From positions 20,991,406 to 21,055,405 of the forward strand of contig OZ020514.1 in NCBI GenBank assembly GCA_963971425.1: 64,000 nucleotides of DNA, read 5' to 3'. Under the pieces are notes generated by a model. It was not told the origin of the DNA, did not search any database, and saw only the letters and a list, made by a program, of their open reading frames with translations. A program made the translations under genes and the position numbers. Shown piece after piece: positions 2,886-59,049 of the stretch. Origin of the DNA: Bryoerythrophyllum caledonicum (Eukaryota > Streptophyta > Bryopsida > Pottiales > Pottiaceae). The first letter of the stretch is position 1; every line of letters begins with the position of its first letter.

Positions 2886-3227
2886 TGGATTATGATTTGA
2901 GTAGTATGATAGGTACATTTAGTTTATCATTAGATAAATGTGAAATTAATCACTACTTAACTAATTTCTATCATATCTTTAATCTTATTTATACTATAAA
3001 AGTTGGAAAAATCTATTTTATAATTACTTGGCTCTATTTAGCCTTCCTCTTTGCTTAGAGACGCCCTCGTCATCTCCAACCTTTATTCTTGAATGTTGAT
3101 CTCTTTGCTTGCCATCTCGTACTTTATTTGCTAATGTTTCAAAATTCGTTAATTTGCTTACTTTCTTAAATTCTTAGGGGTTGTTATCTTCATGTTTGTT
3201 GTCCATAGTTTATATCTTTCATAAGTA

Positions 3228-3275
3228 TGATGCCATATTTAAGTAAATCTGGACTTTAGGGTTAAATCTAGACTC
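3228..3275. other. left flank motif matching 19.0 kb; candidate boundary of region A
   Basis: The string ATGCCATATTTAAGTAAATC followed by TGGACTTT recurs in near-identical form at 19006-19036. The two copies flank the whole zone that contains the GGATCC-centred palindromes (4.3-18.9 kb). The right copy is part of a longer inverted repeat; the left copy is followed by a weaker inverted half, AAATCTAGACTCTGGCAC. It could be the terminus of a large element, or simply two copies of a small unrelated repeat. Confidence 0.35.
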
Positions 3276-3719
3276 TGGCACAAAAACATGTGTTAGAAGA
3301 TAAATGGGAAATCCCCCAATCCTAGAGGTAAACAAGGAAATATAAAGAAGAATTGTGAATTTCTAAAGTAACCGTGGTGCTTTCAAAGGAAATTATTTGA
3401 GAATCGATTTTAAATTATAGTTTGATGAGAACTAATGTCTAAAGACTAGAGGATCACCCGATCTATGTCAAAGAGACGGATCAAGCAATTCAACAACGGT
3501 AACACAGAGGGATCCAACAACAAATATAGTCTGCATGAAACAAGTAGGTAGTCACTTAGATACAACGTATGAGAAATATATTGAGAAGTCGTAACTTTAT
3601 ACATAGGAATTAGCACCTCTAAATAAATAATGATCCTATGTAGGAACCATCTACAAAGTCCGTAGTACTCGGTCAATGTGCCATGGTTCAAGCAGTCTAC
3701 GTCTAAACTTTCCATCCGT

Positions 3720-4292
3720 CTCATGCTGACAAAGATATTTCTTCACCGAGCGATAAAATCAAAGAGGAATAATGAACGGACGCAACGCTATTGCAATGTC
3801 TGGTATAACATTGGATGCATTGGGTAATTCCATTTCACCAAGCCAGGACTTTGAAAAGTAACAAGCATCGTTTTAGTTGAAAACATGCCGCATTGGGTGG
3901 TCATCAACCATTTATACTGTGTCGGGAAGGCAGAGCTTCATAGTCTTTGGATCTGTTGAGAGTCTCTGGAGAACCTTGTCGCATAGAGGATAATCTCCAG
4001 GCCTAGAACACTTATTCCGCCCAATGACAAAAAGAGGTCAAGTCTTTATTTCTTTGGGGAGGATGACTTCAAGAACCTATTGCAGCCGCGATTGTACCAT
4101 GCAAGACCAAATGCCGACATGGAAAGATCTCATAAAGATTCTAAAGAACTCTAGGAGCGGAGGCCAAACTAAGATATTCTTTGCATTGAAGCGTCGAGGG
4201 GTGGAATGATTGTATTGCTCGAAACAAAGCACTCCGTTTATGGAGAAGACGATAACATTTTTTGGCACGCCAAGTCGTTGTAAACATAACAA
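3720..4292 (-). pseudogene. FCP1/NLI-like HAD-fold domain, second copy in cassette A, broken
   Basis: The first exon (4292-4077) reads VPKNVIVFSINGVLC, then a conserved block ending EFFRIFMRSFHVGIWSCM. That is the IWSSM region of FCP1-homology (NLI-interacting factor) proteins. Further on come NKCSRPGDYPLCDKVLQRL and MVDDHPMRHVFN, matching the family's VDDSP motif region, and CYFSKSW. The nucleophile motif DxDx(T/V) is degenerate (SINGV lacks the first Asp and has Asn for the second), so catalysis is unlikely even if expressed. Two in-frame TAA codons interrupt the VDD region. It follows the first HAD domain at 4.5-5.2 kb and is separated from it by a palindrome-bearing gap. FCP1-like proteins dephosphorylate RNA polymerase II tails or act as adaptors; the role here is unknown. 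Confidence 0.6.
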
Positions 4293-4310
4293 AAGAGAGA
4301 GGTTATGAAG

Positions 4311-4334
4311 ACGACCGGAGGATCCTCTGGTCGT
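4311..4334. repeat. region-A palindrome
   Basis: GACCGGAGGATCCTCTGGTC with outer AC/GT pairing, one base off the perfect palindrome. It sits in the gap between the two HAD-like domains. Confidence 0.8.
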
Positions 4335-4475
4335 AAAAAATCAATAGACAAGAACACAAATGAAGGTAATAATTTTGCGTAAAAAGTTGAAAAGAATGCA
4401 CCATGCAACCTTCAAGTTTACTACATGGAAACCAATGTACAAATATGACACGAATTGTCTCCGAGAAACAAATAA

Positions 4476-5172
4476 TTATTTGGATCGATTGTTTTTGAGA
4501 TCCGAGGACCGAGAACACTTGGTAATTATACTTTTAGCTTCCTTGGTAGAACTAAAGCGACTACCACGCACACATCCAGGAGGGTCATTTTTCTGAACAA
4601 ACTTTGCTATAGGGAGGTTAGAAGAAAACATCCTCATCAACCAGGGCTTTAGGTCGGAAATGAGGAACTTGTCCGTCATTACTCAAGTCCAAGGGAGAGG
4701 ATGAATAGCATCAAACTCGCCATTGAGCAGGTTTTTCTCAGGACTGTCCTTAATCAACAACGTCAATTCACGAGCCACGTGATCATACCGTTTTACGAGT
4801 ACGGAGAGATCCTTCAGCATGTATGCTTTGCCTCTATTTGCGGCACTAGGAAATGATGACTTCGTAACCTGTGCTTGGTAAGAACTATGAGTTCTGATTC
4901 TGCAACCAAAGAAGAACCTCGCAAAGCATCCTGTAACATGGTTTCGACATTCTTCTTCGTGGGGCAACTCCATATCACAACATTAGCCTAAGGTAAACCA
5001 CGCCATAAAGAGGGGACAGTCGAGTCTAACAATATTTTCTCTCACCGAGCGAGCGGTCCTATGAATAAGAAATCCATCCAAATCGAGGACAAAAGTGTAT
5101 CTTGGCATCCTTACCTTTGACACAGTGGGTACAAGTGGGACAGCGGCGTCAAGTACATTTCCTATAGAAACG
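4476..5172 (-). pseudogene. FCP1/NLI-like HAD-fold domain, first copy in cassette A
   Basis: An upstream exon near 5172-4983, after a plausible acceptor (TTTCTATAG), reads PRYTFVLDLDGFLIHR. This is the FCP1-homology nucleophile motif with Phe in place of the usual Thr/Val. The next exon (4973-4476) includes GKAYMLKDLSVLVKRYDH, LIKDSPEKNLLNGEF, and a C-terminal block around DLKPWLMRMFSSNLPIAKFV. These match the KDL, DDSP and terminal helix regions of plant NLI-interacting-factor-like proteins. A TGA-type break separates HPLPWT from VMTDKF in the same frame. It is transcribed in line with the ParB-like gene upstream and with a second HAD domain downstream; cassette B has one HAD domain in the same relative position. 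I call it a decayed or divergent paralogue. Confidence 0.6.
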
Positions 5173-5202
5173 CAAGGTATAAAAGATGAGTGCGCTGCTG
5201 GG

Positions 5203-5224
5203 TGACTGGAGGATTCTCCGGTCA
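5203..5224. repeat. region-A palindrome, variant
   Basis: TGACTGGAGGATTCTCCGGTCA, with T replacing C at one central position. It lies just upstream (minus strand) of the exon carrying the HAD nucleophile motif, inside what is probably an intron. Confidence 0.75.
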
Positions 5225-5305
5225 GACAACAAAGTGGACAATGATGGAGAAAGAAGTGAAGTCGAATTGACCTTGCGAAGAAGTTGCCAGACCAGCATGA
5301 GGACC

Positions 5306-5477
5306 TCATGATTCACCCTTTTCGCAAACACTGGCGTCAGAAAACCTCGGCACTTTCCTAGGAGGGCTAAATGGCATTAGATTGGCACCGGCGTCCTCAA
5401 AAATGCCTTGCAACACAGGCTCTTTCGTGCCCTCGAGACCTGTGGAATTTGTTCCTCGTACATGAAGTTTAGGAGGA
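5306..5477 (-). pseudogene. coding-like fragment truncated by the 611-bp element
   Basis: A minus-strand frame reading PPPKLHVRGTNS, then LQGIFEDAGANLMPFSPPRK. It is probably an exon of cassette A lying between the acidic segment (6.3 kb) and the HAD domain. It is cut at its 5' side by the transposable element at 5478-6088. No domain is recognised. Confidence 0.35.
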
Positions 5478-6088
5478 GGGTGAAAGTCCACTAAGATGGT
5501 ATATTTATAGTGTCACAAATGGTTTTGGAAAGAATCACGAACTTTCTTTTGCTGCATAGTGCAAATGTGGGATCGATCTTGGAATTCTATTAATGGAATG
5601 TGATAATTGCCTTGATTTAAAGTCTAGGAATCCCAAAAATATTGTGTTTTGACTTATGGTTTGGCCAATATAGGTATATCTCTCATCAGTATATACTTGT
5701 CACAAGTATATGACATTTACCAAATATACTTATTTTGAGAGTTCTAGGAAGTTAAATACTTCAAAAGTTTTGGAACACATTCACGCCATAATGTGTTCAT
5801 ATATTATAATTGAAATTCTAGATCGGAAACTTATTTTCACTTTTATTGCTAAAAATCAATATATTTTTTCAAGGCTTCTAAAATAGGACTCAATGTTGAT
5901 TTTTGCTTTAATTTTTTATCCAATCAGATACATCATGTATAGATCCATCTTGTAACATATTTTTTTCTGAAGAAAAAACTTTTTTTTTCCATTAAATTGG
6001 GCCAAATCAAGTTTTTTTGTCCAAAAAAATATACTTTTGGGTATATTTTTTTTGCCCAAAATTGAGTAGCTCTAGCTGACTTCTACCT
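5478..6088 (+). mobile_element. 611-bp non-autonomous element, copy 1
   Basis: It is nearly identical over its full length to 49407-50017 in the same orientation. It starts GGGTGAAAGTCCAC and ends GCTGACTTCTACCT, giving imperfect inverted ends (GGGTGAAAGTC against GGGTAGAAGTC in reverse). A 4-bp duplication AGGA flanks it at 5474-5477 and 6089-6092. It has no coding capacity. Sola1, Ginger and some Academ elements make 4-bp duplications; the superfamily is not settled. It is inserted inside cassette A. Confidence 0.85.
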
Positions 6089-6280
6089 AGGAACAGTAAT
6101 AGGTTGCAACGTCTGCAAATTTGCTAGTGTGGCGGTTGCTGCTAATGTTGCCGTGCCAACAATCTGTTGCGGAGCCTCCACTGGCAGGCTAGTGGAGGGC
6201 AGAGAAGAGGAATCAACTTCCAATGCCGTAGGTTGATTGTCATTTGGTGGTCTAACCCTTGATGCAAACCTACGGGATTT

Positions 6281-6517
6281 CTAAGTTCTAGGCCCAGTGG
6301 GTACATTAGGTACACCGGTTGATGGCGGTGAATGGACAAAATCTTTGTTTTGTTGCATCTCGTCATCCTCGGCCAAAAGGACTGCCTCCCTTATCAACCC
6401 TGGGTCTATAGCATCAAGGATAGGCTCAACTACATCGCTCTCAATTACATTTGTAGAAGCCTTTACGAAAAACGGGTGAATTTCTTCCGCCGTAAAATTC
6501 AAAAGAGACTGCATCAA
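6281..6517 (-). CDS. acidic, hydrophobic-rich exon of cassette A
   Basis: A 78-codon frame with MMQSLLNFTAEEIHPFFVKA, then SDVVEPILDAIDPGLIREAV and LLAEDDEMQ. It has no named domain, but its composition (runs of V, E, D, I and L) resembles the minus-strand exon at 53636-53345, which occupies the same place in cassette B, just before the HAD domain. The left part (6142-6280) and flanks contain candidate continuation with no clear splice sites. It may be the N-terminal leader of the HAD protein. Confidence 0.4.
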   Translation of the reverse strand: MMQSLLNFTAEEIHPFFVKASTNVIESDVVEPILDAIDPGLIREAVLLAEDDEMQQNKDFVHSPPSTGVPNVPTGPRT

Positions 6518-6777
6518 TGAAGGGTCGAGGTAACCGGCGTCCGGAAGCTGCGACCAAGAATAACAATCGGTGAGTTCAACGTCTCAGTCGGGATTTTCAA
6601 ATTTGAATTCGGCGTTCCGCATTGTAGGTGGACGGAGGAGAAGATCAAGCCTAAACCGCTTCGGATCGGGATGCACATAAAGATTATTTACCTGGGTCCG
6701 TCAGAGAATGAGGATTATTTACGCGGCTGAAAATGTGATGACTCTATGGCAGAATTGGGAAAAACAAAAGGAAGGCA

Positions 6778-6827
6778 ACTAGAGGATCCTCCGGTCCATG
6801 CAAGGAAGACGGGAGGATTCCCTAGTC
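6778..6827. repeat. two region-A palindromes 30 bp apart
   Basis: ACTAGAGGATCCTCCGGTCC at 6778-6797 and GACGGGAGGATTCCCTAGTCC minus one base at 6808-6827, joined by CATGCAAGGAA. They lie in the gap between the exons at 6.5 and 6.85 kb. Confidence 0.75.
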
Positions 6828-6852
6828 CATGCAAGGGAAGAGAGAACACCTC

Positions 6853-7440
6853 CTACTCTACAAAGTCGTCATTATCCCGCAAGTGTGACGATTCCACGGC
6901 CCCAAGTTCTACAAGGTCAACTTCCATGTCTCCTTCTACGTGACGCTCCTTCATGAGGTACATCTCTCGCACTTCAATCTGAATTGCAACATCTTTCTTT
7001 GAAGGTGGAGAATCCAAATGTTCAGATCCCTTTGGTATTTCCTTATAATCTGAATCCCCACCTGACCCCGAATCCGAATGATCAGAATCTGAGTCCAAGT
7101 CACGTCTTCCACCTGGTGGGGGGCATTAAAATCCTGATTTTGCTTAGTCCACAAGTTTTCCTGGCGCGTTAAAGCCTTGCCATCAGACTGCTGACCACCC
7201 GTTCGATGTGCTATAGCTGGCTCCTTCTTTTGCGGTGTCTTTTGTTTAGTCTTTTACGATGTCTTCTGATTTTTTGGTGTCATTTGAGGAGGTGCCGTCA
7301 GGGTAAGGACAACTCGAGATTCCTAGATAGCAGAAGCTTTGGAAAGAACTCCAGCCTCATCAAGCTTGTCGTAGACAATCTCGAAGACTTGTGCGTCCTT
7401 AGTCTCCAATCAAAGAAACAACACTTTGGTTGAGATCACG
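6853..7440 (-). pseudogene. Ser/Asp-rich acidic and Lys-rich segment of cassette A
   Basis: The distal part (7098-6853) reads MDSDSDHSDSGSGGDSDYKE, then HLDSPPSKKDVAIQIEVREM and ERHVEGDMEVDLVELGAVES. The proximal part (about 7405-7190) reads LETKDAQVFEIVYDKLDEAG, then a TAG, VVLTLTAPPQMTPKNQKTS, a TAA, and KTKQKTPQKKEP. This is a low-complexity, probably disordered, charged region after the methyltransferase-like tail. Cassette B has a coiled-coil, charged protein in the same slot. Two in-frame stops and a frame change near 7100 mark it as broken. No enzymatic domain is visible. Confidence 0.45.
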
Positions 7441-7500
7441 ATTATAATGTAAAGAATGATGTCAGAACTAAGCAATGCAAAACAAGTAGCCGGATGTAAG

Positions 7501-7520
7501 ACCGGAAGATCATTTGGTCA
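7501..7520. repeat. region-A palindrome, degenerate
   Basis: GACCGGAAGATCATTTGGTC. It keeps the outer GACCGG/GGTC arms and a GATC core. It lies directly after the exon ending SAISWIGL, in an apparent intron. Confidence 0.6.
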
Positions 7521-7524
7521 CTTA

Positions 7525-8728
7525 CTAAGCCAATCCATGATATAGCAGAACCCCCGCCAACGTTCACAATGACATCAATCTTCTTCCTGAGGGAGCCAAT
7601 CAGTGTGTTAACCGCTTTGATGTTGTAATTGTCACAGCCGTCTTCAGCCCACTGAGTGCTTGCATCCTTAAACTCCGCTATGTCTATCACGTGCTAGTAA
7701 ATCAATTCGTTACCGAAGAATCTACAGAAGCTATTTTCCACGTTGATATTAGGATCATGACCGTAGAGGAAGTTAAAGTACAAGGGTAGGGTAGGCTCAG
7801 GAGTTGAAGGTTTGGTGAAGCCATCTGTCCCAGACCTAATTTACAACGTCGAAGTACACTGCCACACTTGTTGTTGTTGAATAGCCTTAGCCAGCTCCAA
7901 GACGACATTCTTTACTTCCACCATCCCATCTTGATCGGTGGTGAACACCCCAGCGAGCACTGGCCTCCTGAATTTCTGTTTGTCCTTATACTCCATTGCA
8001 CCCAAAGTACGGTTGACCTGATCCTTGATATTCCAACAGGTACCTCGCAACTCCCGATTAATAAAGCTGTAGACAACCACGGCCGTCGAACCTTCAATGT
8101 ACCAGCTCATTAGAGACTCCTGCTTGAGAATCTTCTCGAGGTCTCCTGATTTCCGGTTCATCATCCAAATACGATACTGGCTGAAAAACGTAGAAACTGA
8201 AGTCGACGTGGTAACCTTGTTCTCTGATTGACGGGTGCTGATAGATCGGTGTTGCTCAAAGATTGCCTTCAGCAATGGCGCAATGTCGTTGGAGTTGCTC
8301 AATAGATTCAAGTTCTGGCCATGCTTCCGGAAAAACGTCTTCCTGCCATCATCCTTAAGAAGTCTGTCATACCACGTCTACATAACCGCTTCGGATACCT
8401 TCAGCTCCGAGGCAACCTCAAGATACTCATCCTCGCCATAATTCTCCTTGACTTTCCTGGCGGATGGAGCTCTTAAACAGAACGATCTCCAACCATAGAG
8501 TGATTGGAGATCGTTCTGTTTAAGAGCTTTGGGATGAAACCTCTTCGCTTGAATCCTCTTCTTCTTCGACGGAAGCCCAAGATCCTCCTCTTCCTCCGTG
8601 TCATCATCATCAATGCCAGGTAAGTTGCATGTCTTCCCGAAGGAGTTTGGAAGCAAGCCTTGAATCCAAGCATCTTGGATTCCTAGCCATTTTCCAAATA
8701 GGTGGTCGAAAACAAATAGGAGCGGCAA
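7525..8728 (-). pseudogene. C-terminal portion of the ParB-like gene A, possibly methyltransferase-like
   Basis: Minus-strand coding blocks follow the ParB-like exon. Block 8728-8378 has an acidic patch (DDDDTEEEEDLG) followed by a basic one (KKKRIQAKRFHPK). Block 8311-7841 includes FFSQYRIWMMNRKSGD and GSTAVVVYSFINRE. A short block reads LYGHDPNINVENSF, and 7690-7525 ends KKIDVIVNVGGGSAISWIGL. That last segment aligns with FCKRGEAVVQLFGGTKLLIA in cassette B, where it looks like the FxGxG motif I of a beta-class DNA methyltransferase; here it is more degenerate. A stop separates the first two blocks in one frame. A perfect 25-bp inverted repeat lies inside 8468-8528. Function is uncertain; homology to the cassette B gene rests on order and on this tail motif. 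Confidence 0.4.
8468..8528. repeat. perfect 25-bp inverted repeat inside coding sequence
   Basis: The arms are 8468-8492 and 8504-8528 with an 11-base loop (CCATAGAGTGA). Arm 1 begins AGCTCTTAAACAGAACGATC, and arm 2 is its exact reverse complement. On the minus strand it is translated as LKQNDLQSLYGWRSFCLRA, within the frame at 8728-8378. Confidence 0.95.
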
Positions 8729-8870
8729 TTTAGGTTAGCCCCATGCTTCTGTGTCCTTGACGAGCTTTGTTTTCTCAGTCACTATTGCCCTTAGTGTCTC
8801 AATCCATGCTTGCAATAAAAAGTTGTCAATATTGAGACTAGAGGAAAATGAATGTGATTAAAGTAGAGCA

Positions 8871-8890
8871 ACCGGAGGATCCTCCGGTCC
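8871..8890. repeat. region-A palindrome, perfect core
   Basis: ACCGGAGGATCCTCCGGT is a perfect 18-bp palindrome. It lies in the gap between the ParB-like exon (9025 and up) and the following exon (8728 and down), an apparent intron. Confidence 0.9.
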
Positions 8891-9024
8891 AATCTAAGGG
8901 AAGAGAGTTGGAAGAATATCAATCAAGACTACTCTAAACTCAGACGTGTTAGGATTACCCCGGACCGACGGCCTTGGGCAGCCAACATCTTTCCAACTCT
9001 CCCGCGCGGTTGCTAGCTGGGTAT

Positions 9025-10406
9025 TTAATTATCCTCAGTTTGACTGCAGACAAGGTCTTGGTTGAGTACTCTCAAATAATATAGGTGACTTCCAAAATCC
9101 AATGATTTTGCCCATGCGATGGTGACTACAAAGTTTCGCGCATCTTTGGCGTCTCTAGGACTGAGACTTCCCTCATTAATGAAAACCTTGTGCGCAGGAA
9201 CACAATGTTGGCCTCCAATGATGTAGTAGTCGGTCCGATCGTTGATGTCATTCTTCATTGGTTTTTGCTCGAAGTACACTACGGGTCCATATGTTGGGTT
9301 ATCGTTGTCCACCTCATGAGCAGGTCTCTTAATCGGCATGACGTACAAATGCTGCAATGATGCCTGGAAGGAAGGCATGGTCCTCTTCTGATAAACAAGT
9401 TGAGCAACCCAAAGCTGATCGAGTGGACGATACACTACTTTTCTGGCAGGAGCTCTGTGCAGGCAATCAATGTCGACAGTCATAACTATCTTATCATCCG
9501 CGTCCTTCATTGGACGCCTACCAAAGATGTGCAGTTCCGCAAACGCCTTTTCATATAACGCCTTCACTTGTTGTAGATCTTTCGGAGAGTACTTTGTCAC
9601 TGTTGTGTGCGACAAGGCTACAACCTTTGCTAATGTCATGCCATCCTCCTTCGGATTCCACGTCTTCCTCTGAGGCTTCTTCTTTGAAGGCTCGCCCTCA
9701 CTAGCAATAGCAATTATCGATGGCCTCTTTTGTGTCTTTGTAGGTGTTGGAGGATTGTTCTTCCTCTGGTTTGAGATGGAACTATCCCGCTCGGCCCGTA
9801 GTTCGGCCCAATTTGAAGCAACGATGCAAGGATTTGGTCCCATACACAAGACTTAGAAGCCAAAGTCCATAACAGTCGAGCAGTGTTTGGGGCTCAAAAT
9901 AGAAGATTGTATAACAAGGCCGTAGACCCTACAACATCCAGTACTGAGCACAAACTCGCTGATGAGAAGAAGAAACAAGTTGGACTCCTCAATTCGCTTC
10001 AGATCCAGCACCTCCAGGTGCTTTGTTGATAGCACGAATGGATTGCCACGGTCCTTTCTTTGTATCGCAATAACAGGAGCAATTCGGACCAAATCCTTTC
10101 TGTAGTCCTTCTCCCAAGCTAACCCCACTCAAAGACATTTTCCGCTAGAAAACAAGTAAGGGATTCAAATTCATCGTGTTGATAATCAAACTTCTTCAAC
10201 CCCACTGTGATCGTAGGGTCAAGCTTCACTGGACACCAATGAAGGTTCATATTTTGTTTCTTGATATAGTATTGGCTGCGGAAAGCAACAACTGCATAAG
10301 TAATTTGGGGAACCATAATACAATGAACTCGAAATAATTTCCTACACCAAGTGGAAGTTGACATGAAGAGATTTAAATATGTAAATGCAGTCAGCCAATT
10401 GTTCAA
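9025..10406 (-). pseudogene. ParB/sulfiredoxin-like (GQH motif) protein, cassette A
   Basis: The best block is an open frame of 274 codons (9849-9025). A Pro/Lys-rich N-terminal part (NPPTPTKTQKRPS, GEPSKKKPQRKTW) is followed at about residues 105-260 by a globular region. It contains YRPLDQLWVAQLVYQKRTM and DYYIIGGQHCVPAHKVFINE, then FVVTIAWAKSLDFGSHLYYL. GQH-x3-A resembles the substrate-binding motif of the ParB/Srx nuclease fold or the related DGQHR fold. Cassette B carries the homologous DYYIINGQHNVAASKAM. The frame continues upstream to 10128 across a TAA at 9853-9855, and a further block (10406-10119) reads NLHWCPVKLDPTITVGLKKF with a frame change near 10120. A role in DNA binding or nucleotide binding is suggested by the family only. 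Inactivation seems likely. Confidence 0.55.
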
Positions 10407-10458
10407 CCCATGTCCACAGGGTCAACGACATTCCAGAGAGACAAATGATGATTGGAAA

Positions 10459-11208
10459 GGACTAGAGGATCCTCCGGTCCCTACAAAGTCTAGAACACAA
10501 AGAAATAAAAAGCAAAAAGGGAAGGGATTGGTGGATCCTTTGGTCACCACGGAGTCAAGAATACACAGATATAGAAAGCTGAAATGGAAGGGACTGGAGG
10601 ATCCTTCGGTCACCACAGAATCAAGAACACTCAAATACAAAAAGTTGTAATGGAAGGGACTCAGGGATCCTTTGGTCTCAACAGAGTCTAGAACACAAAA
10701 AACAAAGAGCAAAAATGGAAGGGACCGAAGGATCCTTTGGTCACCACATAGTCAAGACCACACAAATATAGAAAGCTAGAATGGAAGGGACCAACGGATC
10801 CTCCGGTCTCAACAAAGTCTAGAACACAAAGAAACTGAAAGTTGAAATGGAAGGGACCGGTGGATCCTCCGGTCAGCACAGACTCTGGAACACAAAGATA
10901 CAAAACACTGAAATGGAAGGGAGACCGGAGGATCCTTCGCTCTCCATAGATTCCAGAATACAAAATTAAAAAAAACTAAAATGGAAGGGACCGGAGGATC
11001 CTCCGGTCTTGACAGACTCTAGAACACAATGATATAGAACGCTCAAATGGAAGAGACGGGAGGATCCTTCGGTCTGAAGTGCGGATCCAGTTCGTAGAAA
11101 TTGGTCCAACAGTTAGCAGTGACCGGAGGATCCTCTCGTCTCTATAGTATCACTATAGTATATGTCCTAGAATATACTATTGGCAAGGACCATAGGATCC
11201 TCCGGTCT
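10459..11208. repeat. array of 12 palindromes, 66-bp period
   Basis: Twelve copies of a GACCGGAGGATCCTCCGGTC-type palindrome start near 10459, 10526, 10591, 10657, 10721, 10788, 10855, 10921, 10988, 11053, 11121 and 11187, a spacing of 64-68 bp. GGATCC is kept in every unit while the arms vary (for example GTGGATCCTTTGGTC). Most spacers share AGTCTAGAACACAAAGA and AATGGAAGGGA. The array lies between the 5' exon at 11.4-11.5 kb and the next coding block at 10.4 kb, so probably in the first long intron of the ParB-like gene. Confidence 0.95.
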
Positions 11209-11435
11209 CCTAAGAGTCTTCTTGCATGCGATTATTTGCCCTAACAACCTACTCTGAAGACTAGATTGATCTCGTTGTCCGTACAGTACTTCTAAGTATC
11301 GAAGAAAATATTATCAATCAAATTACTAGCATTCTTCTTGCTTCACTGGAAATCAGTAAGTAAAAGAAACCAATCCTGTGTCCAAAACTTTGTAGCAAAC
11401 ATCAATGTCAGTTTGTATATGAAATAGAAAGGTAC

Positions 11436-11500
11436 CTCTGGAGGAACTCCGGCACTCGCATGATCGCTCTTGAAGAAGCGCCTGCCATGATACCGCCAAT
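11436..11500 (-). CDS. candidate 5' coding exon of the ParB-like gene A
   Basis: On the minus strand an acceptor-like TGCAG precedes the exon and GAG followed by GTACCT serves as donor. One frame gives MAGASSRAIMRVPEFLQR from an ATG at 11488-11486. Another is open as WRYHGRRFFKSDHASAGVPP, whose SAGVPPE tail resembles GLVPAEKYW in the small exon of cassette B (59645-59702). Which frame is used is unclear. It lies 5' of the palindrome array. Confidence 0.4.
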
Positions 11501-11634
11501 CTGCATTTCACAGTATTATATCAGCGGCGAATGTTTGAAGTCAATTTGATCGGGAACACCAACTGGTTTGTATTTTGAGAACCTGGGAAAAAACCTAGAC
11601 GCAAATCAAAAGTTCTAAATCAAGAAACATATTT

Positions 11635-12240
11635 TTGCGTAATTGTCTTCAATGTTGCGCGTTTGGGATCGCCACGCCCGTTCGTAACGACCCGCCCCTC
11701 AAAGTTGCACACAAATCCTTGGAAATCTCACCCCTATACGGCTTTCAAAGTAGTTCCTCGAGACCTTTCTGCTTCTTGGCCGACAGCTTAGTATTCTCGC
11801 AACTGTCACATGATGCGCAACTATTGCACAATACTCACAACGCAACTCTCGCCTTCAGGTGTGCAGATTCCTCACACCTAGTCGCAGCTCAACTCTCAGA
11901 CATTAGCACTGAGAAATTAGACTTGCACGAGTCCTTCCTCACACCTCCTCACCGCTCTTCATTGCTCCTCATTGCTCCTCACTGCTCCTTACCGCTCCTC
12001 ATTGCTCCTCACCGCTTCTCAAAGCTCCAAAATACCTCCTTTACACTCCGAAAAGCGGCTGACAGCTCCTCGCAACGCAACGCAATCCACCGCAACGCAG
12101 AAACAGGTCGAGCAGAAGTAACGATGACTTGGAGATGGCTGAAGCAAGAAACTGAAAATGGCGACAGTGGGAAGGGAGAATGGCAATGGCAAGGGGGAGA
12201 GACGGGCAACCGTGTGTGGAGTTCGGCCTAGAGTTCTCAT
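11635..12240 (-). promoter_or_regulatory. probable 5' flank of cassette A with CT-rich tandem repeat
   Basis: A plus-strand frame of 198 codons exists here, but its protein is low in complexity and derives from a tandem CATTGCTCCTCAC-type repeat at about 11940-12020 and CGCAACGCAA repeats at 12070-12100. The stretch lies immediately upstream of the minus-strand 5' exon at 11.5 kb. The comparable position in cassette B (60.3-60.7 kb) is also a simple-sequence flank, so I read it as promoter or 5' UTR DNA. No TATA box or other site can be assigned with confidence. Confidence 0.35.
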
Positions 12241-13270
12241 GATTAGGATCTATTAGCCATCCTACGTCACGTCTAATTAGACATTTTACTCTCTCATAAT
12301 GTTGTTTACATCAGTGCATTGGAGATCAAATGATGTACTTTTCCATCAAGTGGAAGCTTCTTATCCACTAAGAAATTTCTTTTTAAACTTTGAAATCTTT
12401 CCAAAGTTAGTACTGTATACTAGTTCAAATTTACACTATTTATTCCTTTTAAAAGAAAAATTCCTCTGTTTAGTAAAGAATCATAGGTTTAGGATTTAGG
12501 TTTAAGGATATATGATTAGGAACATATCACTTATGTAGAGTCCCTTTAAGCCATAATTATGGTCAAATAATCGGTACTATACCACCAAACTATGTAAAGA
12601 TTTATATTTCAATGCTAAATGAATCAAAGGTCATAATAAAAAATTTGACAATCTATACGAAAGATTTAGGGTGATGACTTCTTAGAAAAACTTAGTTAGT
12701 ATTTGTATTTATCTTCAATGAATATCATGTTATCTTTTAGGCAATGTGAAAATACAAAAATGTACAAACTAATAATTTATATAATATCTCAATATGTAAT
12801 TAACTAATGAAGGCTACTAAGAATTTAAGATATTATTCCTTTTTAGTGGTAGTAAGTAACATATTCATTGTATAATAAAATGAATTCACTTATTTTAATT
12901 GATCAAAATCCAATAATAATATTATCATTCATATTGCTTATACAATGTTGAATAATATTTCGAGTAATATATCTTTTGTTATGAAATATTAGTCGGTATA
13001 CATGTTAATGTACATTTAATTGTGAATGACATGAACAAACCTTTCAATTGACCTTATAGTAAATTAAAATTAAAATGAAAACATATATCTCTCACAAAAC
13101 AGAGTTCATAGTGGCAATGTCCACATTACTTTCAAATGTCATAAACAATCATGCTTTAAACCTAGCCAAATTAAATCTTTGTGAACATGGATGTAATTTA
13201 TTCCTTGTTCTATAACCTAGATTACTAGAACGCTTGCATATAATTTTGAAACCCAATCTTTTTTAATAAT
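12241..13270. other. AT-rich intergenic DNA
   Basis: No gene, repeat or regulatory site that I can support. The longest open frame is 66 codons, with no family resemblance. Confidence 0.6.
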
Positions 13271-13274
13271 CCTT

Positions 13275-13665
13275 GCATTCTAGACCCTCATACCTTAGAA
13301 CCCTAAATCCTAAATCCTAGCCCTAAACCCTCAACCATAAATTTGACACCCCGAATCAATTGATGTACCCTTAACCCTCAACCCTAAATTCTAAACCCTG
13401 AATCCTTGAATTGATGTACCCTAATCCCTACACTGAACCCTGAACCCTAAAATTAATAGCTAAAACCTTGAACCCTAATATTGATTGCTGAAACCCTGAA
13501 TTCAAAGGATCTGCAACCCTGAACCCTAAAATGCTAAATCCTAAACCTTGAAACTCTAAACCTTAAATCCAAAATCCTTTACTTGGAATACCTTGAAAGC
13601 TTTAACCTTAAATCTAGAAATTTATTTACTTTTAATCTATCACTGAACCCTAAACCTTGAACCGT
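13275..13665. repeat. degenerate interstitial telomere-like repeats
   Basis: Many scattered copies of ACCCTAAA, CCCTGAACCCTAAA and AACCCTCAACCCTAAAT, mostly CCCTAAA with single-base changes and broken periodicity. This matches the plant-type telomere unit (TTTAGGG in reverse). It may be a relict of end-joining or of telomerase repair, and it supports a green-lineage source. Confidence 0.7.
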
Positions 13666-13669
13666 GGAA

Positions 13670-14520
13670 TTCATGATTATTCCACGTTCTCATTTTCCAA
13701 TTACCAACTAAATGGCATATTTTACTACTATGTACTGATCTTTCGTACTTCGTACATGGATCAATGCATCACCTCATTGCATGGGTTGCATAGGTTCTGT
13801 CAGAGTTGGTTGTGAGAATGGTTGTGTATACTACGCCAAATTGAAAGGTGCAGATTCTTTGGTGCGGATTCTTTGGTTCAGTGCGGGACGATCAGTGCAG
13901 AGCGGGGCGTTTACTGCACATCCATGCGGTTACTTCAGAGCATTTTTAGCATAGAGAATTTCTTGCATCGCGCTTATTGCTTGGCCAATCATGGGAGGGA
14001 AATTTTGTTGCAAGGCGTAATCAATCTGTGAAGTGATTTTGTTACATGTCTGTTAATTGCTAAAGAATATTTTCCGGATGGCTGATTTGATCTAGGCATT
14101 ATCCTTACATTGTTTAGTGGAGCGCAATTTTGTTTGAGGCTCATCAAGTTTGCAAGGCCCTTTGTTTCAGTGAGATATTCCTCCATAGATCGTGTTGGCC
14201 CGCGGTCATCATGCATCGGTAACAAGTAAGCCAAAATCTTCCGTATCAAATAACTTTCTGTCTGTGAACTTCGGAATTCATATTCATTTTAGACATTGTT
14301 GTGTTGATTTGCAATCTTCCACATTCACTCATTAACTTCAATATTGATTCAATAGCATCAAAAATTGATTAAGTATTTTGATTTGTATTGTTTTGGTTTC
14401 CTTTTTCTCAGTTTCGTAGGTCTGTTTTGTACCACTTGTTTGTACAAATCTGACGTGTACCAATGATGACCCCAGAAGGAGTTGGACATCGGGAACTTTC
14501 ATCATTCATCCACTTTCTAG
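13670..14520. other. intergenic region between cassette A and the DUF7869-type gene
   Basis: It contains short frames only (69 codons plus-strand at 13822, 86 codons minus-strand at 14249). Neither resembles a family. The divergent promoter of the plus-strand gene would be expected here, but no element is identifiable. Confidence 0.45.
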
Positions 14521-14522
14521 GC

Positions 14523-14677
14523 AGAGACCGTAGGAAACTTCGGTCCCATTGACAAGGGAAGAGTTCATCACATTTCCAGAATTCAGTACGAGACCGAAGG
14601 ATCCTGCAGTTCCTTCAACGAGGGAAGAGTTCATCACATATCCAGATTTAGTACGAGACCGGATGATCCTCCGGTCC
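14523..14677. repeat. three region-A palindromes, 65-67 bp apart
   Basis: GAGACCGTAGGAAACTTCGG (14523), GAGACCGAAGGATCCTGCAG (14590) and GAGACCGGATGATCCTCCGG (14655). The spacers share GAAGAGTTCATCACAT and CCAGA-TT-AGTAC. The period is the same as in the array at 10.5-11.2 kb although the spacer sequence differs. They lie immediately upstream of the first coding block of the DUF7869-type gene. Confidence 0.85.
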
Positions 14678-15030
14678 TTTGATGTCTTCTTTACTCTGTA
14701 TGCGCGATGATTTTACCAAGCCATCATGCGGTGGGGCTGACGTTGGGGCGTGTGATTGCCCTGGAGACTTTTTTCGAGGCATGGAAGTTCAACTAACTTA
14801 CTCTGCGCATGGCGTTGTTGGACAAGCCACCGTCATTGAAGCTACTCCAATAGGAAGTTGGCTTGGCGTCGACATCAGTCTCATCATGGGTGATATGACT
14901 CTGCTTACACCTTCTGAGATTGGACATGAGGCGAGGAGTCTTCTTATGCAACCATTGCAAGGGGGTATCTTTATACTCTCTGATGCGATTGGTAGGACTG
15001 TTCTTTGGGATGCCGAGCGGGTAGTCCTAC

Positions 15031-15050
15031 GACCAGAGGATCCTCCGGTC
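15031..15050. repeat. region-A palindrome inside or beside coding frame
   Basis: GACCAGAGGATCCTCCGGTC. In the reading frame of the surrounding gene it would be translated as RPEDPPV. A GT at 15020 and an AG at about 15073 could make a 54-base intron, which is short for plants. Confidence 0.85.
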
Positions 15051-16090
15051 TCTCCCAAAGGTTAGGATTTATGAGAGATTCCAAATGGCATTCGTTACAT
15101 CCCACAGGCGGAATGGGTGGGGCATGTGGTTAAGCTCTATACCAGCGATGGGGATCTCATGGCCTCTGGACGTGTCAACTACTCTCTCTCAAGCGAGCTG
15201 GTCCAGAATAGTACATTAGGGGAGGAGAACATTGGAGTCACTATATTCGATGTCTTCATCAGTGATCGTAATGACATTATGAGTCATCAGAGGTGGCCCA
15301 TATCCGAATATAGATTTGATGGTGGGCGAAGTCTAAGTGAGACGGTTGAGCATTTTTTTTGTGTTTTGGAAGCAGCTAAGCCTTACTCGCACCTTGGTGC
15401 TCGACCAAAAGCACCATACTAATTTATTCGTCGCAAGAAGCGTACTAAGGAGAAGCTTGATTCTTACGCAATGAAAACTAGTGCGTTGGAGATTCAAGAG
15501 GTCAGTTTCCAGTCGTGTTGCACTGACAAATGCACTCAAAAACTCCGTCCTAGTGATACCTTCTCCATCCAACAGCGGTATTACTTGAAGGGATTTGACA
15601 ATAGGCAGGAATATGGAATTGTTGTGGGAGGGCAACTGCAAAACCTAGGAAATAATCGTAAAAGGAAGTATGTCACTTTGCCTGGCGTGGATGTCTGCGC
15701 TATAGCATGGTATAAAACTCATGGCATACCCAAGTCAACTTTTCACACCTATGTCAACCTATATCAAGCAGGCATGTTCTCATCTACTTACGGGAACAAA
15801 GGCGTTAAACAACCCCGTCTCGGAACCCTGCAAGCAATGGGTACCATCACGACAATTATCAACGAGAACGCGGATAACATGCCTCATCAGATTTGGGCTA
15901 TTGTATCAGGTGGCATGGACACACTCAAGTTTCTACTACCAGGTCACAGCTGGAAGAGGATCCAAGCTGATGCCACGGAGGTAAGACACTTCACGGAATA
16001 TCTCAATGCCCTTCTTTTTTGCTTTGATCAAGTGAATCGAGAGCAAAAGTCATTTGAAGTTTCACAAGTGTGTTGGTATGAACAATGTCA

Positions 16091-16112
16091 ACCGTGTGAG
16101 GATCCTCCGGTC
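16091..16112. repeat. region-A palindrome in the intron of the DUF7869-type gene
   Basis: ACCGTGTGAGGATCCTCCGGTC. The right arm is intact and the left arm degenerate. It lies inside the 99-base intron that begins GTATGAAC and ends TTTTTCGCAG. Confidence 0.8.
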
Positions 16113-17879
16113 TTCGACTCAATGTGTGGACATTCTAATCTGATTTTTGTTGATAAACTTTTTTTCGCAGACAAATCTTGAGTACAGGTTGCCCAAGGTT
16201 TTGCGGATCGCTGTGAGTAGAATCAAGAAGGAGCTCTTCAACAATGTTGCAGTTAAACCCGTGGGGAGTACATTTGCAAAGTGCACTACCTATGACACTC
16301 TACAGCAGTTCATTGGAAAATCCATGAAGGGCTTTGCCGAGTATGTGTCGTTTGTAAAACAACAAAATGCGCACTTGAACCACCAAGCCTTGTGTCGGCA
16401 TGTGTACCATTCTTGGAGAGAAGAGTCCAAACGCAACAAGGGGGATATTATTTGCATTATCCATGATAAAATGGATACGGCCAAGACTGCTATTCCTCGT
16501 ATGCGAGTTACCACGAAGCTCACTTCAACTCTTGGTGAGCTATCAATGAACGTCACCGGAATGGTCAAGCATGGACATGGTGATGGTGCATACGCCCACT
16601 ACTCTACAAACCTGTGGCTAGGAGATTTGAATTACACGATTTCATCGATTGCCAGATTACTACGTCGTCTCGAGGAACCACCCATTTGTGTTACAGGTAG
16701 GCTTTTCTCTTACGAGCGGGCGAACTCGTTCTTTAAGGCAATGCTACGTGGGAAGTCCAGATATCTTGGCGTTTTACCTAAGGTGATAGCGAGCCCTAAA
16801 ACTGCTCGCGTCCCCCTACCAAAGTAGTTTTACTTGCAACTGGACAACTCTGCAAAGGACAGTAAGAACTAGTTTCTCATGGCGTTCCTATATATGTTGA
16901 CTTATTGAAAGGTGTTCAAGGAAATCCAAGTTGGGTTCTTATTAGTCGAGCACACACATGAGGATATCGATGCTTACTTCAGCCACTTTTCCAAGACCTT
17001 GAAGAATCGCAATACATTTGTAGTCGCTAACTTGATGAAGTCTTTCATGGAATCGGAGGAGATGAGTCCTATGCCGGAGTTTGTTCAAGAGGTTGCAGAT
17101 TTCAAATCTTTTGTCGATGGCTATATATGCGCACAAAAACTTGTAGGCCTAGGAGAGATGCACCTCTTCAAATTCTACGTTGATGAAGAAGGTTGGCCCG
17201 TCATGTGCTATAAAGTTTCCGCAGTTGATCCGCACTGGCTATCTCGAAACAAGCCTGCTATACGCCTTTGGAAGGTGGATACCAACAGTCATCCCATGAT
17301 TCCTTCAGGCATTCCAAACCTTGTACCTTTCAAACGATTGTGGAGAGACGATGATCCATCTAAAGCCGGTGATCAAGTAAAGGCAAGGGAGAAGGCTTCC
17401 AAAGCGCTTGAGAAGAGGTCGTTCATGAAGTCTAGAATTCGAGGATATATTGGTTTTTGGGAACAAGGAATGAAAAAATTCAAGGGCTTTCAAAGAGATT
17501 TTCCACCTTATGTTGCCTACTGGAATGCAATACTGGCAAAACTTGATAAACCTCTTCCTCCCACTGCTTCGGCCTTGGTAGAAGGCTTTTGGCCAAATCA
17601 TGATTGGAGTGCAATAGTTCCAGATCCCTTATACCTCATTACTAGAGGAGATGTTACACCTGAAGATGAGGAGCCTGAACACTACTGCGGCCCACGGGTG
17701 TCCAAACCAAAGGAGTCTTTGAATCTGTGGCGAGATGTGATATTGGGATTATGGATACTACTCCGTCCTTTACACCCTGAAATATATCATGTCTGGTTAG
17801 GGAGGGCGCATTTTGCAGCCAATAGAGAAGTTGGACATGACGACTATGGAAAGTTTGTAATCCAATTCTAGGAGCCAAG

Positions 17880-18300
17880 AAATGCGTTCAAAGACCATTC
17901 GAAGAAGTACGAGGATTGTTGGACAGCGACGTGGGTTCTGAAAAATCGTCATCTGTAGCAAATGCATGTGGATGCCGTCTTGTTTTCCTCCTGGTTAAAG
18001 AAAATGAATCTAAAGACTCAAACGATTCTAGAGAGGGACCAAAGAGCAGCCACGACTAACCTTGCAATTGCAAACGACGTAGACCTTTGACCATAGTCTT
18101 ATAGAAGGTTTCCAGTTCGACCGGATGATCTGTCGTTATTCTTCCTAGCAATTTGTTCGATCCGAGGATCCGCCGGTCTTTTTCTTGCATATCAGTTTGA
18201 TCGAAGAATTCGCCGGTCTTCATCAGGCCTGTGTACAAATCCACATGTCTCCTCAACTTGATGCACACACAAAAGTAATTCCGACTTCCGCACTAGGTGT
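17880..18300. repeat. 3' flank of the DUF7869-type gene with degenerate palindromes
   Basis: Degenerate region-A palindromes CGACCGGATGATCTGTCG (18118), GATCCGAGGATCCGCCGGTC (18158) and GATCGAAGAATTCGCCGGTC (18199). No further coding block is recognisable downstream of 17871. Confidence 0.6.
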
Positions 18301-18374
18301 CTACATTGTATCATCGCTCTTGAGATTCTTTTGTTTCGACTAGAACCGCATGTATGCTATAAATTTTGTTTCTA

Positions 18375-18770
18375 AACCTTAATGTGAAGAATTTGGCGTT
18401 ATTCTACTCACTTCCACTACTTGCATGTTTTTCCGTTGCATCATCATTGAACATCAACAAAAATTTTGTATGTTGTCATGTCCACGTTGCTTTGGAGTAT
18501 GTGCCGGTCCTTGATTATCATTCTTGTTCTCTTAATGACGTTTTGTTGTTGTGATCTATTCCTATCTCCGTAATATGAAGAATTCAGCGTTATTCTACTC
18601 ACTTCCACTACTTGCATGTTTTTTTGTCGCATCATCTTTGATATCAATAAAAAATTTGTATGTTGTCATGTCCACGTTGCTTTGGAGTATCCGCCGGTCC
18701 TTGATCATAATTCTTGTTCTCCTAATGACGTTTCTGTTGTTGTGATCTATTTCGATCTAGTAGTTCAAAG
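18375..18770. repeat. tandem duplication, two units of about 200 bp
   Basis: Both units contain TTATTCTACTCACTTCCACT, then GTATGTTGTCATGTCCACGT, and a CGGTCCTTGAT segment that looks like half of the region-A palindrome. Unit 1 runs from about 18375 to 18570 and unit 2 from about 18575 to 18770. No coding potential is convincing. Confidence 0.8.
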
Positions 18771-18865
18771 GAATTAACTTCCATCACGTTTCTGCACTTC
18801 AACATTTACAAGGAGCCAAATATCATTTTGGGACTCAAACTCTTTCTTCTCTAACTAGCTTGAGT

Positions 18866-18890
18866 CGGACCGGAGAATCTTCCTCTCGGT
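18866..18890. repeat. last region-A palindrome, degenerate
   Basis: GGACCGGAGAATCTTCCTCT followed by CGGT, with interrupted arms. It is the rightmost recognisable member of this family in the window. Confidence 0.6.
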
Positions 18891-19005
18891 TGACCCCACA
18901 TCATGACGTCCTTCTAGTTCCTGCAATTTCATTTTAATTCATCTTCTAACACTTAAAGTTTATACTACATCTTTGATAATTCTGTTGGAACAATCGAAGG
19001 ATTTT

Positions 19006-19069
19006 TATGCCATAATTTGTTTAAATCTGGACTTTTGAATGTCCAGATTTGATTGTATATGGCATTATG
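19006..19069. repeat. inverted repeat; right candidate boundary of region A
   Basis: The left half, ATGCCATAATTTGTTTAAAT followed by CTGGAC, is mirrored by GTCCAGATTTGATTGTATAT followed by GGCAT. An 8-base spacer separates them. The left half also matches 3228-3257 in direct orientation. It may be the end of a large element, or a small hairpin repeat that happens to occur on both sides. Confidence 0.5.
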
Positions 19070-49175: not shown

Positions 49176-50196
49176 AACACCATATTTGTTATAATGGGAA
49201 ATTTCCATGATTTTAAGAAAATACAGTTTAGGTCGAGTCGATTTGAATTGTACCCACAGATTGAGTACTTCAATGAAACTAGACAAAACAACCAATCGTC
49301 TAAATTTTTAACTCGCCATAACTTACTCAAAATTTGTTCAAATTGGACAAATGAGGTGTTCTTTGACATTGACAAAAAGTTAGATGTCAAAAAACACCTC
49401 ATATGCGGGTGAAAGTCCACTAAGGTGGTATATTTATAGTGTCACAAATGGTTTTGGAAAGAGTCACAAACCTTCTTTTGCTGCATAGTGCGAATGTGGG
49501 ATCGATCTTGGAATTCTATTAATGGAATGTGATAATTGCCTTGATTTAAAGTCTAGGAGCCTAAAAAATGTTGAGTTTTGAATTACGATTTGGCCAATGT
49601 AGATATATCATTCATTAGTATATACCTGTCACAAGTATATAACATTTGCCAAATATACTTATTTTGAGAGTTCTAGGAAGTTAAACACTCCAAAAGTTTT
49701 GGGACACATTCACACCATAATGTGTTCATATATTTTGATTGAAAATTCTAGATCGGAAACTTATTTTCACTTTTATTGCTGAAAAACGAGATATTTCTTC
49801 AAGGCTCCTAAAATAGGACTCAATGTTGACTTTTTCTTTGATTTCTTATCCAATCAGATACATCATGTATAGATCCATCTTGGAACATAATTTTTTCTGA
49901 AGAAAAACCTTTTTTTTCCATCAAATTGGGCAAAATTAAGTTATTTTGGCCAAAAAAATATTCTTTTGGGTATATTTTTTTTGCCCAAAAGTGAGAATCC
50001 CTAGCTGACTTCTACCCATGCCCAATTTGGACAAAATTTGAGTAAGTTATGGCCATTTGAATATTTTGACGATTGGTTGTTTTGTCCAGTTTTAGTGAAA
50101 TACTCAATGAGTGGGTACAGTTTAGGTCGACTTGACCTAAACTATCACTAAATTGGGGGATTGAAAATCTTCCAAAATAATGAATATGGTGTTTGG
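49176..50196. mobile_element. foldback element with arms of about 170 bp
   Basis: The left arm (49176-49346) is mirrored, with mismatches, by the right arm (50021-50196). For example, ACAAAACAACCAATCGTC on the left answers GACGATTGGTTGTTTTGT on the right, and the outer edges AACACCATATTTGTT and AATATGGTGTTT also pair. Each arm carries a TTTAGGTCGA phrase related to the region-B palindrome. The loop holds a further hairpin (GAGGTGTTCTTTGACAT against ATGTCAAAAAACACCTC) and the 611-bp element. Confidence 0.8.
49407..50017 (+). mobile_element. 611-bp non-autonomous element, copy 2
   Basis: It matches 5478-6088 end to end, has the same length, and is flanked by the 4-bp duplication ATGC (49403-49406 and 50018-50021). 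It is inserted in the loop of the foldback element, so it arrived later. It is non-coding. Confidence 0.9.
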
Positions 50197-52368: not shown

Positions 52369-52397
52369 AATCGATACAGTTTAGCTCTATCCGACCT
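52369..52397. repeat. region-B palindrome, degenerate
   Basis: CAGTTTAGCTCTATCCGACC followed by TAAAGT. It lies at the 3' side of cassette B, after the last HAD block. Confidence 0.55.
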
Positions 52398-52432: not shown

Positions 52433-53245
52433 TTAAGAGCGGAGATTCTGAGACATTTGGATTGCGTTCCACATACTCGCAGACTGACCACACGTCTTCT
52501 GATCATTATAGAACATCTCCCGACCCGAGGGATGTTCGGCCCGGTACTGCACTAGGCCACCCGGAAACAGATGAAGGTCAGAGAGATATGGCAGCAATTC
52601 CTCCAGCAGTACAGAATCATCTCGCGCGCCATCATGTTTGTGCGACCATGATGGAAGAAGAAGGACGTTCTCCAACAAATTGAGCATATGGTTAATCGGG
52701 TTGTCGTCAATGACAAGCGTATTCGCCGCAGTATACTCACGACCCAACCTATTGAAGAGATGGTTTGATAAGGTCTTCAAGAAGATGTCATTATGAGTGC
52801 CAGGTTCCTTCATGTAGATTGTTCTGCTACCGACTCTACGCTCGGGAACCCTATCGCAACTCTCATGACCAAAGATCCTAAGTGGGTACGAAGAACTATG
52901 GTGAAAAATATATTTACATATCTAACGTGTTGTAGATTCCATCATCGAACTCCAGATTGTGATGGTGGCAATCTAAGAGAACTTCGTGAGGAATTTAGCA
53001 CAACCAGGGCGCACTCGGACTAGTTTAGGGCCTACTTCGGCCGGCTGAACGGACGAGTCGGAGTTCCTGGATCCCCTGGCCTGCCACGAAGGCTCACACG
53101 TGCATAGAATCCCATTGAGGTCCAGCACAACATTCAACCACCTGCCCTCGAAATCTGATAGGACTCTAGGTGTTTCTTCTAGATTACTGGCACCACTTAT
53201 TGATGCCTCACAGACCTGGTTCGGAAACGCCAGGAGAACGAACAA
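52433..53245 (-). pseudogene. FCP1/NLI-like HAD-fold domain, cassette B
   Basis: Block 53245-52900 reads WLNVVLDLNGILC, then LVRVRPGCAKFLTKFS, a TAG at 52973-52975, and IATITIWSSMMEST in the same frame. This is the FCP1-homology N-half, including IWSSM. Block 52813-52433 reads ANTLVIDDNPINHMLNLLEN, VLLLPSWSHKHDGARDDSVL and LEELLPYLSDLHL, the DD-x-P and pyL regions. Asn replaces the second Asp of the DxDx(T/V) nucleophile motif and Ile the Thr, so it may be a non-catalytic relative. It follows the coiled-coil and acidic exons, exactly as the HAD domains follow in cassette A. Confidence 0.7.
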
Positions 53246-58954: not shown

Positions 58955-59049
58955 GTTGGCTCATCGATATCATCGGTAAAATTTACTTTTGGAATGTTTT
59001 TAGGTCTGAAAGTAGAGGTGTTTGAGATGTGGTTTAGGTCCTTTGTTTT

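Follow-up and report, generated by a model that had tools for sequence, protein, structure and literature searches.

A family-specific palindrome marks the non-coding DNA of a large transposon in Bryoerythrophyllum caledonicum

In a stretch of 64,000 nucleotides of the genome of Bryoerythrophyllum caledonicum (hereafter the window; assembly GCA_963971425.1, contig OZ020514.1, positions 20,991,406 to 21,055,405), a DNA transposon named here element A carries many copies of a 20-bp palindrome, P1 (GACCGGAGGATCCTCCGGTC). P1 is a mark of the non-coding DNA of one transposon family, including an array and the near-terminal regions, and sister families carry palindromes of a different sequence. An earlier reading of the window, made from the sequence only, had taken P1 for a mark of the introns of particular gene families as such; this idea is not supported, given that the mark belongs to the non-coding DNA of a transposon family and differs in its sisters. 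We propose, with moderate confidence, that the palindromes are dyad-symmetric binding sites of a transposon-encoded protein, most likely the product of ORF1 or ORF2, which would coat and activate the element through family-specific pairs of protein and palindrome.

Element A, delimited by inverted repeats at both termini, extends from 3230 to 19065. A second genomic copy, E2 (C1:42566853-42586852), is 76-88% identical to A in the larger aligned blocks, and the alignment of the two copies ends at identical points. Because A and E2 share end points, inverted repeats and 4-bp duplications, A is considered a transposon of 15,836 bp, a length that includes a later repeat of 610 bp at 5478-6087. The terminal inverted repeats of A are ATGCCATATTTAAGTAAATCTGGAC on the left and, as reverse complement, ATGCCATATACAATCAAATCTGGAC on the right; those of A and E2 both begin ATGCCATA. 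The target site duplication is TATG for A (3226..3229 and 19066-19069) and CAAT/CAAT for E2, and a B-type element shows the target site of E2 in uninterrupted form. Element A includes a divergent minus-strand cassette and a plus-strand gene. The cassette comprises phosphatase-like (NIF/FCP1, PF03031) blocks at 3828..5168 (4509-5168 and 3828-4265, located by alignment to the protein of the related element E3), ORF2 at 7523..8815, and ORF1 at 9028..10155, which encodes a protein with a conserved (G/N)GQH motif and has at least 142 genomic matches. The plus-strand gene (14676..18084, coding blocks 14676-16013 and 16168-18084) contains a DUF7869 domain and is proposed to encode the transposase.

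All the coordinates at which the sequence-only reading had placed the palindrome proved correct to within 3 bp. A scan of the window allowing up to three mismatches gave 17 matches, all between 4313 and 18178, and none in 100 shuffles; the earlier statement that the window holds no other copy is therefore valid at this threshold, but element B, at ~52-69 kb, carries a different palindrome in a similar manner. With up to six mismatches, 29 matches were obtained in positions 1-24000, among them one with a broken left arm (16093) and a weak one (18680). De novo clustering of palindromes, which counts clusters of three or more members, returned P1 as the sole cluster in positions 1-24000 (21 members; none in five shuffles) and no cluster in positions 19201-48000.

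The position of these copies relative to the coding blocks, defined by a protein-block mask, is as follows. One copy is near the left end (3444), one in the gap separating two phosphatase-like coding blocks (4313..4332), and one just upstream, on the minus strand, of a phosphatase-like block (5204..5223); two copies (6777 and 6808) occupy 6777..6827, a decayed one adjoins the ORF2 block (7500..7519), and another separates the ORF1 and ORF2 blocks (8870..8889). Between the gene blocks there is an array of 12 copies with a period of ~66 bp (10453..11207, units 10460-11188). Three copies (14526, 14592 and 14657; 14526..14676) precede the plus-strand gene, one falls within a variable stretch with an open frame in E2 and E4 (15031..15050), and the broken one (16093..16112) lies in the gap between the plus-strand coding blocks, where E2, E3, E4 and E5 also have sites. 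Downstream of the gene are three copies with a 40-bp spacing (18119, 18159 and 18199; 18119..18218), the weak one at 18680, and one near the right end (18868..18887). The site at 15031 (E2 13653, E4 13599) is found inside one unbroken protein alignment block, and the corresponding stretch of A holds stops; judging from the alignment and from translation by eye, it is probably a coding linker and not an intron. Within the half-site, the centre GATC and positions 2-3 match best, and positions 4 and 6-8 are the most variable, so that the earlier description of GGATCC as the most constant part is accurate only in part. Among the changes at CpG positions in the P1 copies of A, 23 of 31 are C>T or G>A, which is compatible with decay.

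At the genomic level, exact P1 is restricted to a single family. In 437 Mb there are 39 exact copies, and the reversed pattern used as control gave none even with two mismatches. The question raised with the first description, whether the palindrome is equally common in random intergenic DNA, is answered in the negative, since the 39 exact copies are all in or beside A-family sequence: 30 are near DUF7869 or ORF1 matches that are at least 79% identical (21 on C1 computed to be within 15 kb of a match, and nine on C3 and C9 assigned by reading the lists), and nine are in stretches that align to E2 with 82-96% identity at the site.

The sites are concentrated outside the coding regions. Using as coding blocks the matches of protein queries from E3 and from another element, B2, only six of the 128 sites of A, E2, E4, E5 and B are inside coding blocks, as compared with 54.3 expected by rotation (A 1/24, E2 1/23, E4 2/25, E5 0/22, B 2/34); values as low were reached in 18 (A), 13 (E2), 4 (E4), 102 (E5) and 256 (B) of 5000 rotations. 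Conversely, of the 30 inter-block gaps counted in six elements, 29 contain one or more sites; in this count the E3 blocks are open frames with hand-trimmed borders, E4 blocks next to each other were taken as one, and for A the broken copy at 16093 was included. The sole empty gap is in E2 (A 4313 / E2 2040), and another copy, L059, has the exact palindrome there; hence, E2 seems to have lost the site through a small deletion. These data agree with the earlier statement that nearly every gap carries the mark, in the minus-strand cassette as well as in the plus-strand DUF7869 gene, but the array and the sites at 3444 and 18868 are not in introns, and probably neither is that at 15031. The distribution also extends well away from the termini: 21 of the 24 sites of A start more than 1 kb from either end, and the central array is ~7-8 kb from both.

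Related elements show the same arrangement with other words. When six stretches of 20-26 kb were clustered, the largest palindrome cluster was in every case the element's own word (A 21 members, E2 20, E3 32, E4 20, E5 20, B 30), and five shuffles of each stretch gave no cluster of three or more. The words are of the type GATCGTAGGATCCTACGATC in E3, GATCGATGGATCCTTCGATC in E4 and GATCGAAAGATCTTTCGATC in E5, and TTTAGCTCGACTCGAGCTAAA in B. The minor clusters include an 11-member one of B type in the E2 stretch, which belongs to a flanking B-type element, and a 17-member AT-rich one in the E5 stretch, outside the element; others have 3-12 members. The E-type half-sites have GAnCG...GA|TC in common and diverge from one another at fixed positions of both arms. 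The template GANCGNNGGATCCNNCGNTC has 212 genomic sites and the B core 3562 exact ones, with zero for both controls. Among the first 50 template sites listed, all on C1, 42 have a listed DUF7869 or ORF1 match at 15 kb or less, as against 7.5% of random points, the match lists being lower bounds. In addition, all 30 of the 4-kb stretches examined around a DUF7869 exon contain palindromes near to the template, at recurring places in each family.

The words appear to have been replaced in concert. For 41 sites of five elements, placed in gaps by hand and leaving out arrays and some other sites, those that share the family but not the gap differ at 3.49 of 20 positions (208 pairs), whereas those of different families differ at 6.91 positions in the same gap (92 pairs) and at 6.85 in different gaps (492 pairs); the contrast within versus between families was reached by none of 2000 label shuffles. 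Therefore, the sites occupy old positions, in which each family has exchanged its word throughout. The two arms have varied jointly, as expected of a dyad-symmetric recogniser.

Several comparisons bear on which protein the sites follow. The DUF7869 blocks are 70-78% identical to those of E3, and ORF1 and ORF2 39-51%. The first 40 nt of the right ends, in turn, remain similar in A, E2, E3, E4 and E5. Given that the ends are similar and DUF7869 is conserved while ORF1 and ORF2 diverge, the sites do not follow the ends. The half-sites were also grouped by the class of the nearest ORF1, using 38 sites, from 14 elements, that have an ORF1 at 7 kb or less (the input was 39 of the 50 listed sites, 11 with no ORF1 match close by having been set aside by eye); the template fixes 12 of the 20 letters, and hence only the free positions are informative. 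GACCG is present in 40 of 42 half-sites near an ORF1 at least 78% identical to that of A (three elements, A included), GATCG in 21 of 24 near an ORF1 with 52-59% identity (six elements), and GAYCGTAGGA in 10 of 10 near an ORF1 with 42-51% identity (five elements). This correspondence points to the cassette, and not to the transposase, as the probable source of the recogniser. A further point in favour of the proposed binding sites is that the element B2 has a cassette with its own palindrome (TTATCCTCGAGTCGAGGATAA, nine sites), unlike that of the adjoining DUF7869 part.

Regarding the encoded domains, PF25273 (DUF7869) was matched at 16909-17868 of A (E 5.8e-21; 75.4 bits, the curated cut-off being 26), and also above cut-off in E3 (E 7.3e-43) and B2 (2.2e-42). 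PF03031 was matched in E3 (E 5.3e-16), in B at window positions 52436-52921 (5.2e-5) and in B2, and a 113-aa piece of the phosphatase-like block of A itself gave no Pfam match. Nothing above cut-off was obtained in Pfam for the ORF1 and ORF2 pieces of A, B, E3 and B2, and the other scanned proteins of the elements gave only NIF and DUF7869. A profile search with DUF7869 added nothing; among the open-access papers searched none with the term DUF7869 was found, and no such system was evident by title or abstract opening among the matches listed.

According to the reading we favour, a dimeric protein encoded by the element would bind its own palindrome throughout the non-coding DNA of the element. 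Spread-out sites would let the protein coat and activate the whole element, while ignoring other transposons and the host genes. By analogy with known systems, activation could be brought about by countering silencing or by driving transcription of the element, and a part in transcription would suit the phosphatase-like enzyme. Each family would have its own pair of protein and palindrome, changed together. The binding, the identity of the binder and the anti-silencing or activating outcome are all inferred.

A number of results weigh against this reading. Profile and sequence searches of ORF1 and ORF2 against PDB, as well as PHROGs and NCBIfam, recognised no DNA-binding domain. One phosphatase-like block is 65-75% identical, that is, as conserved as DUF7869, and hence the cassette is not uniformly fast-evolving. 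Eight of the 50 listed template sites are more than 15 kb from any listed DUF7869 or ORF1 match, and many copies contain stops. With the protein-query mask, the exclusion of sites from coding blocks is only modestly significant for B and E5; it was weaker with the first mask, made with tblastx (sites inside: A 10/24, E2 5/23, E3 6/34, E4 7/25, E5 8/22, B 16/34), and reversed for B, where 11.1 were expected. This mask was dropped because its blocks took in repeats common to the stretches. Finally, within families the conservation of the sites does not clearly exceed that of the rest, and thus gives no signal of direct purifying selection: in 14 copies of E4 type the values are 0.885 for sites and 0.883 for the rest downstream, and 0.857 and 0.858 in the intron; in four copies of A type, 0.931 and 0.933; and in 11 copies of E3 type, 0.990 and 0.980, with 580 of 5000 random sets as high.

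The strongest rival, unlikely in our judgement, is that an accessory transposition protein binds the palindromes, as TNPA does with the subterminal repeats of CACTA elements, and that their role is in excision instead of anti-silencing. It is favoured by the presence of sites near both ends of A (3444 and 18868), by the retention of near-terminal P2-like copies in a non-autonomous piece of 1 kb (49224 and 50118), and by PMC2613891, according to which the subterminal repeats of CACTA elements vary from family to family and have TNPA-like proteins as their binders. However, the bulk of the sites of A, and above all its array, are far from the ends, and the duplication is of 4 bp, as against the 3 bp reported for a CACTA element in PMC2613891. 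A somewhat less probable explanation is that the short palindromes are selfish or neutral and that gene conversion, with no binding protein, has homogenised them. The 66-bp and 53-bp units of the arrays fit growth by tandem duplication, and no constraint within families was seen, both of which speak for it; against it, exact P1 was not found outside A-family sequence. Moreover, dispersed sites share little beyond the palindrome, which does not suit the conversion of longer tracts: for sites more than 600 bp apart the cores are 0.76-0.84 identical and the 60-nt flanks 0.28-0.34, random DNA giving 0.28-0.30. In B the eight abutting bases reach 0.59, because its palindrome has 27 bp. Since flanking sequences of dispersed sites resemble one another to about the degree of random DNA, spread of the palindrome together with flanking DNA was rejected, and the earlier opinion that ordinary repeat insertion is no explanation is borne out. 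The comparison of 16 sites between A and E2, of which 13 align without insertion marks, one was lost through a small gap in E2 and two are outside the alignments, also speaks against conversion; with L059 keeping the exact palindrome that E2 apparently lost, it led us to reject insertion of the palindrome as a unit.

There is only a slim chance that these elements use a self-recognition system like that of ParB and parS. ParB-parS partition systems have palindromic sites, and the motif (G/N)GQH..A.K of ORF1, as judged by eye, recalls ParB-like and DGQHR domains. A ParB-like protein of the cassette would load at the family-specific palindromes in the gaps, spread across the entire element, and recruit the element-encoded CTD (carboxy-terminal domain)-phosphatase-like enzyme to keep the genes transcribed, and a joint switch of specificity would yield new, mutually blind families. 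ORF1 gave no match in the family and profile searches, and the setting here is a eukaryotic-type transposon. Very improbable, in turn, is that the palindrome acts as an RNA hairpin, folding within the pre-mRNA with an effect on splicing or on the binding of RNA. The consensus sites do fold as RNA at -6.4 to -16.5 kcal/mol, nearly all gaps hold sites, and the stems, read on the assumed sense strand, show more G-U than A-C mispairs, 51 to 34; but a similar G-U excess (57 to 31) is seen in sites between gene blocks, the four bases of the would-be loop hardly vary (GATC in 116 of 128 E-type sites), and sites also occur in arrays, near the ends and in the apparently coding linker. The sites in the array and in the linker speak against splicing as the function, and with the near-terminal sites and the nearly constant loop they led us to reject an intron or splicing mark.

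The proposed binding of the palindromes by a protein of the cassette has its closest parallel in the VANDAL elements of Arabidopsis. According to PMC5735166 and PMC10398659, the 9-base motif to which the VANC21 protein of VANDAL21 binds lies in introns and in the intergenic and terminal non-coding parts, and VANC21 induces a loss of DNA methylation; related VANDAL families have other motifs, often as tandem repeats, and a conserved transposase beside a more variable protein, and DUF1985 and DUF287 are named for VANC proteins (PMC5735166). The likeness lies in short element-specific motifs, differing between families and often in tandem, in introns, intergenic and terminal non-coding DNA (PMC5735166). 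Here as well, the motif is concentrated in non-coding DNA and the tandem arrays differ (66-bp units in A, 28-bp spacing in E3, 53- and 47-bp spacing in B). In contrast with the directional 9-base word of VANDAL, the motif here is a palindrome of 20 or 27 bp, with one to few single copies per gap besides the arrays, and the elements have DUF7869, a 4-bp duplication and, in the Pfam scans, no Mutator-type and no VANC domain. We propose by analogy that anti-silencing or activation here would resemble the VANC and motif system, in an unrelated transposon. For CACTA elements, PMC2613891 proposes that family-specific repeats coevolve with an element-encoded DNA-binding protein; family-specific repeats with such a binder, presumed in our case, are the likeness. 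The differences are that here the repeats run through the whole element, and that the ends (ATGCCATA...) and the duplications TATG and CAAT are not CACTA termini and a 3-bp duplication; furthermore, the tnp2 domain reported in PMC2613891 was not found, only DUF7869 being above cut-off in the plus-strand gene.

If this proposal is correct, these elements would be an independent case, in another transposon group, of self-recognition by means of family-specific short non-coding motifs, comparable to VANDAL. The genes of the elements have at least 125-150 genomic matches per query (at least 125 for the DUF7869 gene of A), and homologous gaps with switched half-sites are a natural series of protein and site pairs. 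It would then be testable how a DNA-binding protein and dozens of sites switch specificity jointly, and how transposons evade silencing and yet spare the host.

Element B, a distant relative of A in the same window with a similar gene plan, extends from 52300, a rough left bound, to 64000 and onward past the window to ~69433. Its 27-bp palindrome, P2 (CACTTTAGCTCGACTCGAGCTAAAGTG), is unrelated to P1 and was found with up to six mismatches of 27 at 52377, 53711, 54796, 54920, 55011, 56498, 56595, 58164, 58694, 59051, 59197-59538 (an array, whose unit at 59249 has eight mismatches), 61533, 61602, 63171 and 63240. On the minus strand, B has a NIF-like phosphatase (52436..52921) and an ORF1 homologue with the motif NGQH (56617..57393). 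In its upstream region (58301-58958) there are repeats of 93-167 bp in both orientations.

Rfam and tRNA scans of the window gave no matches. Within A, degenerate CCCTAAA-like (telomere-like) repeats are present between the two gene blocks (13300-13650). The ~610-bp repeat of A (5478-6087) is missing from E2 and holds no P1 match; the same sequence is found at 49407-50016, inside the non-autonomous piece of ~1 kb at 49176-50193. The ends of this piece are of B type (AACACCATATTTGTTA / TAATGAATATGGTGTT), its arms are inverted, and close to either end it has a B-like palindrome, with seven (49224) and six (50118) mismatches of 27. In the joined stretches L050 and L051 (C2:27232500-27252499), at 5257-13455, a plus-strand cassette with TTATCCTCGAGTCGAGGATAA adjoins a B-type DUF7869 part and finishes in a B-type terminus; this cassette is possibly an element on its own that lacks DUF7869. 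For the DUF7869 piece of B type the genome holds at least 150 matches, many of them in open frames of ~1000 codons and with near-identical scores, which suggests that its spread is recent.

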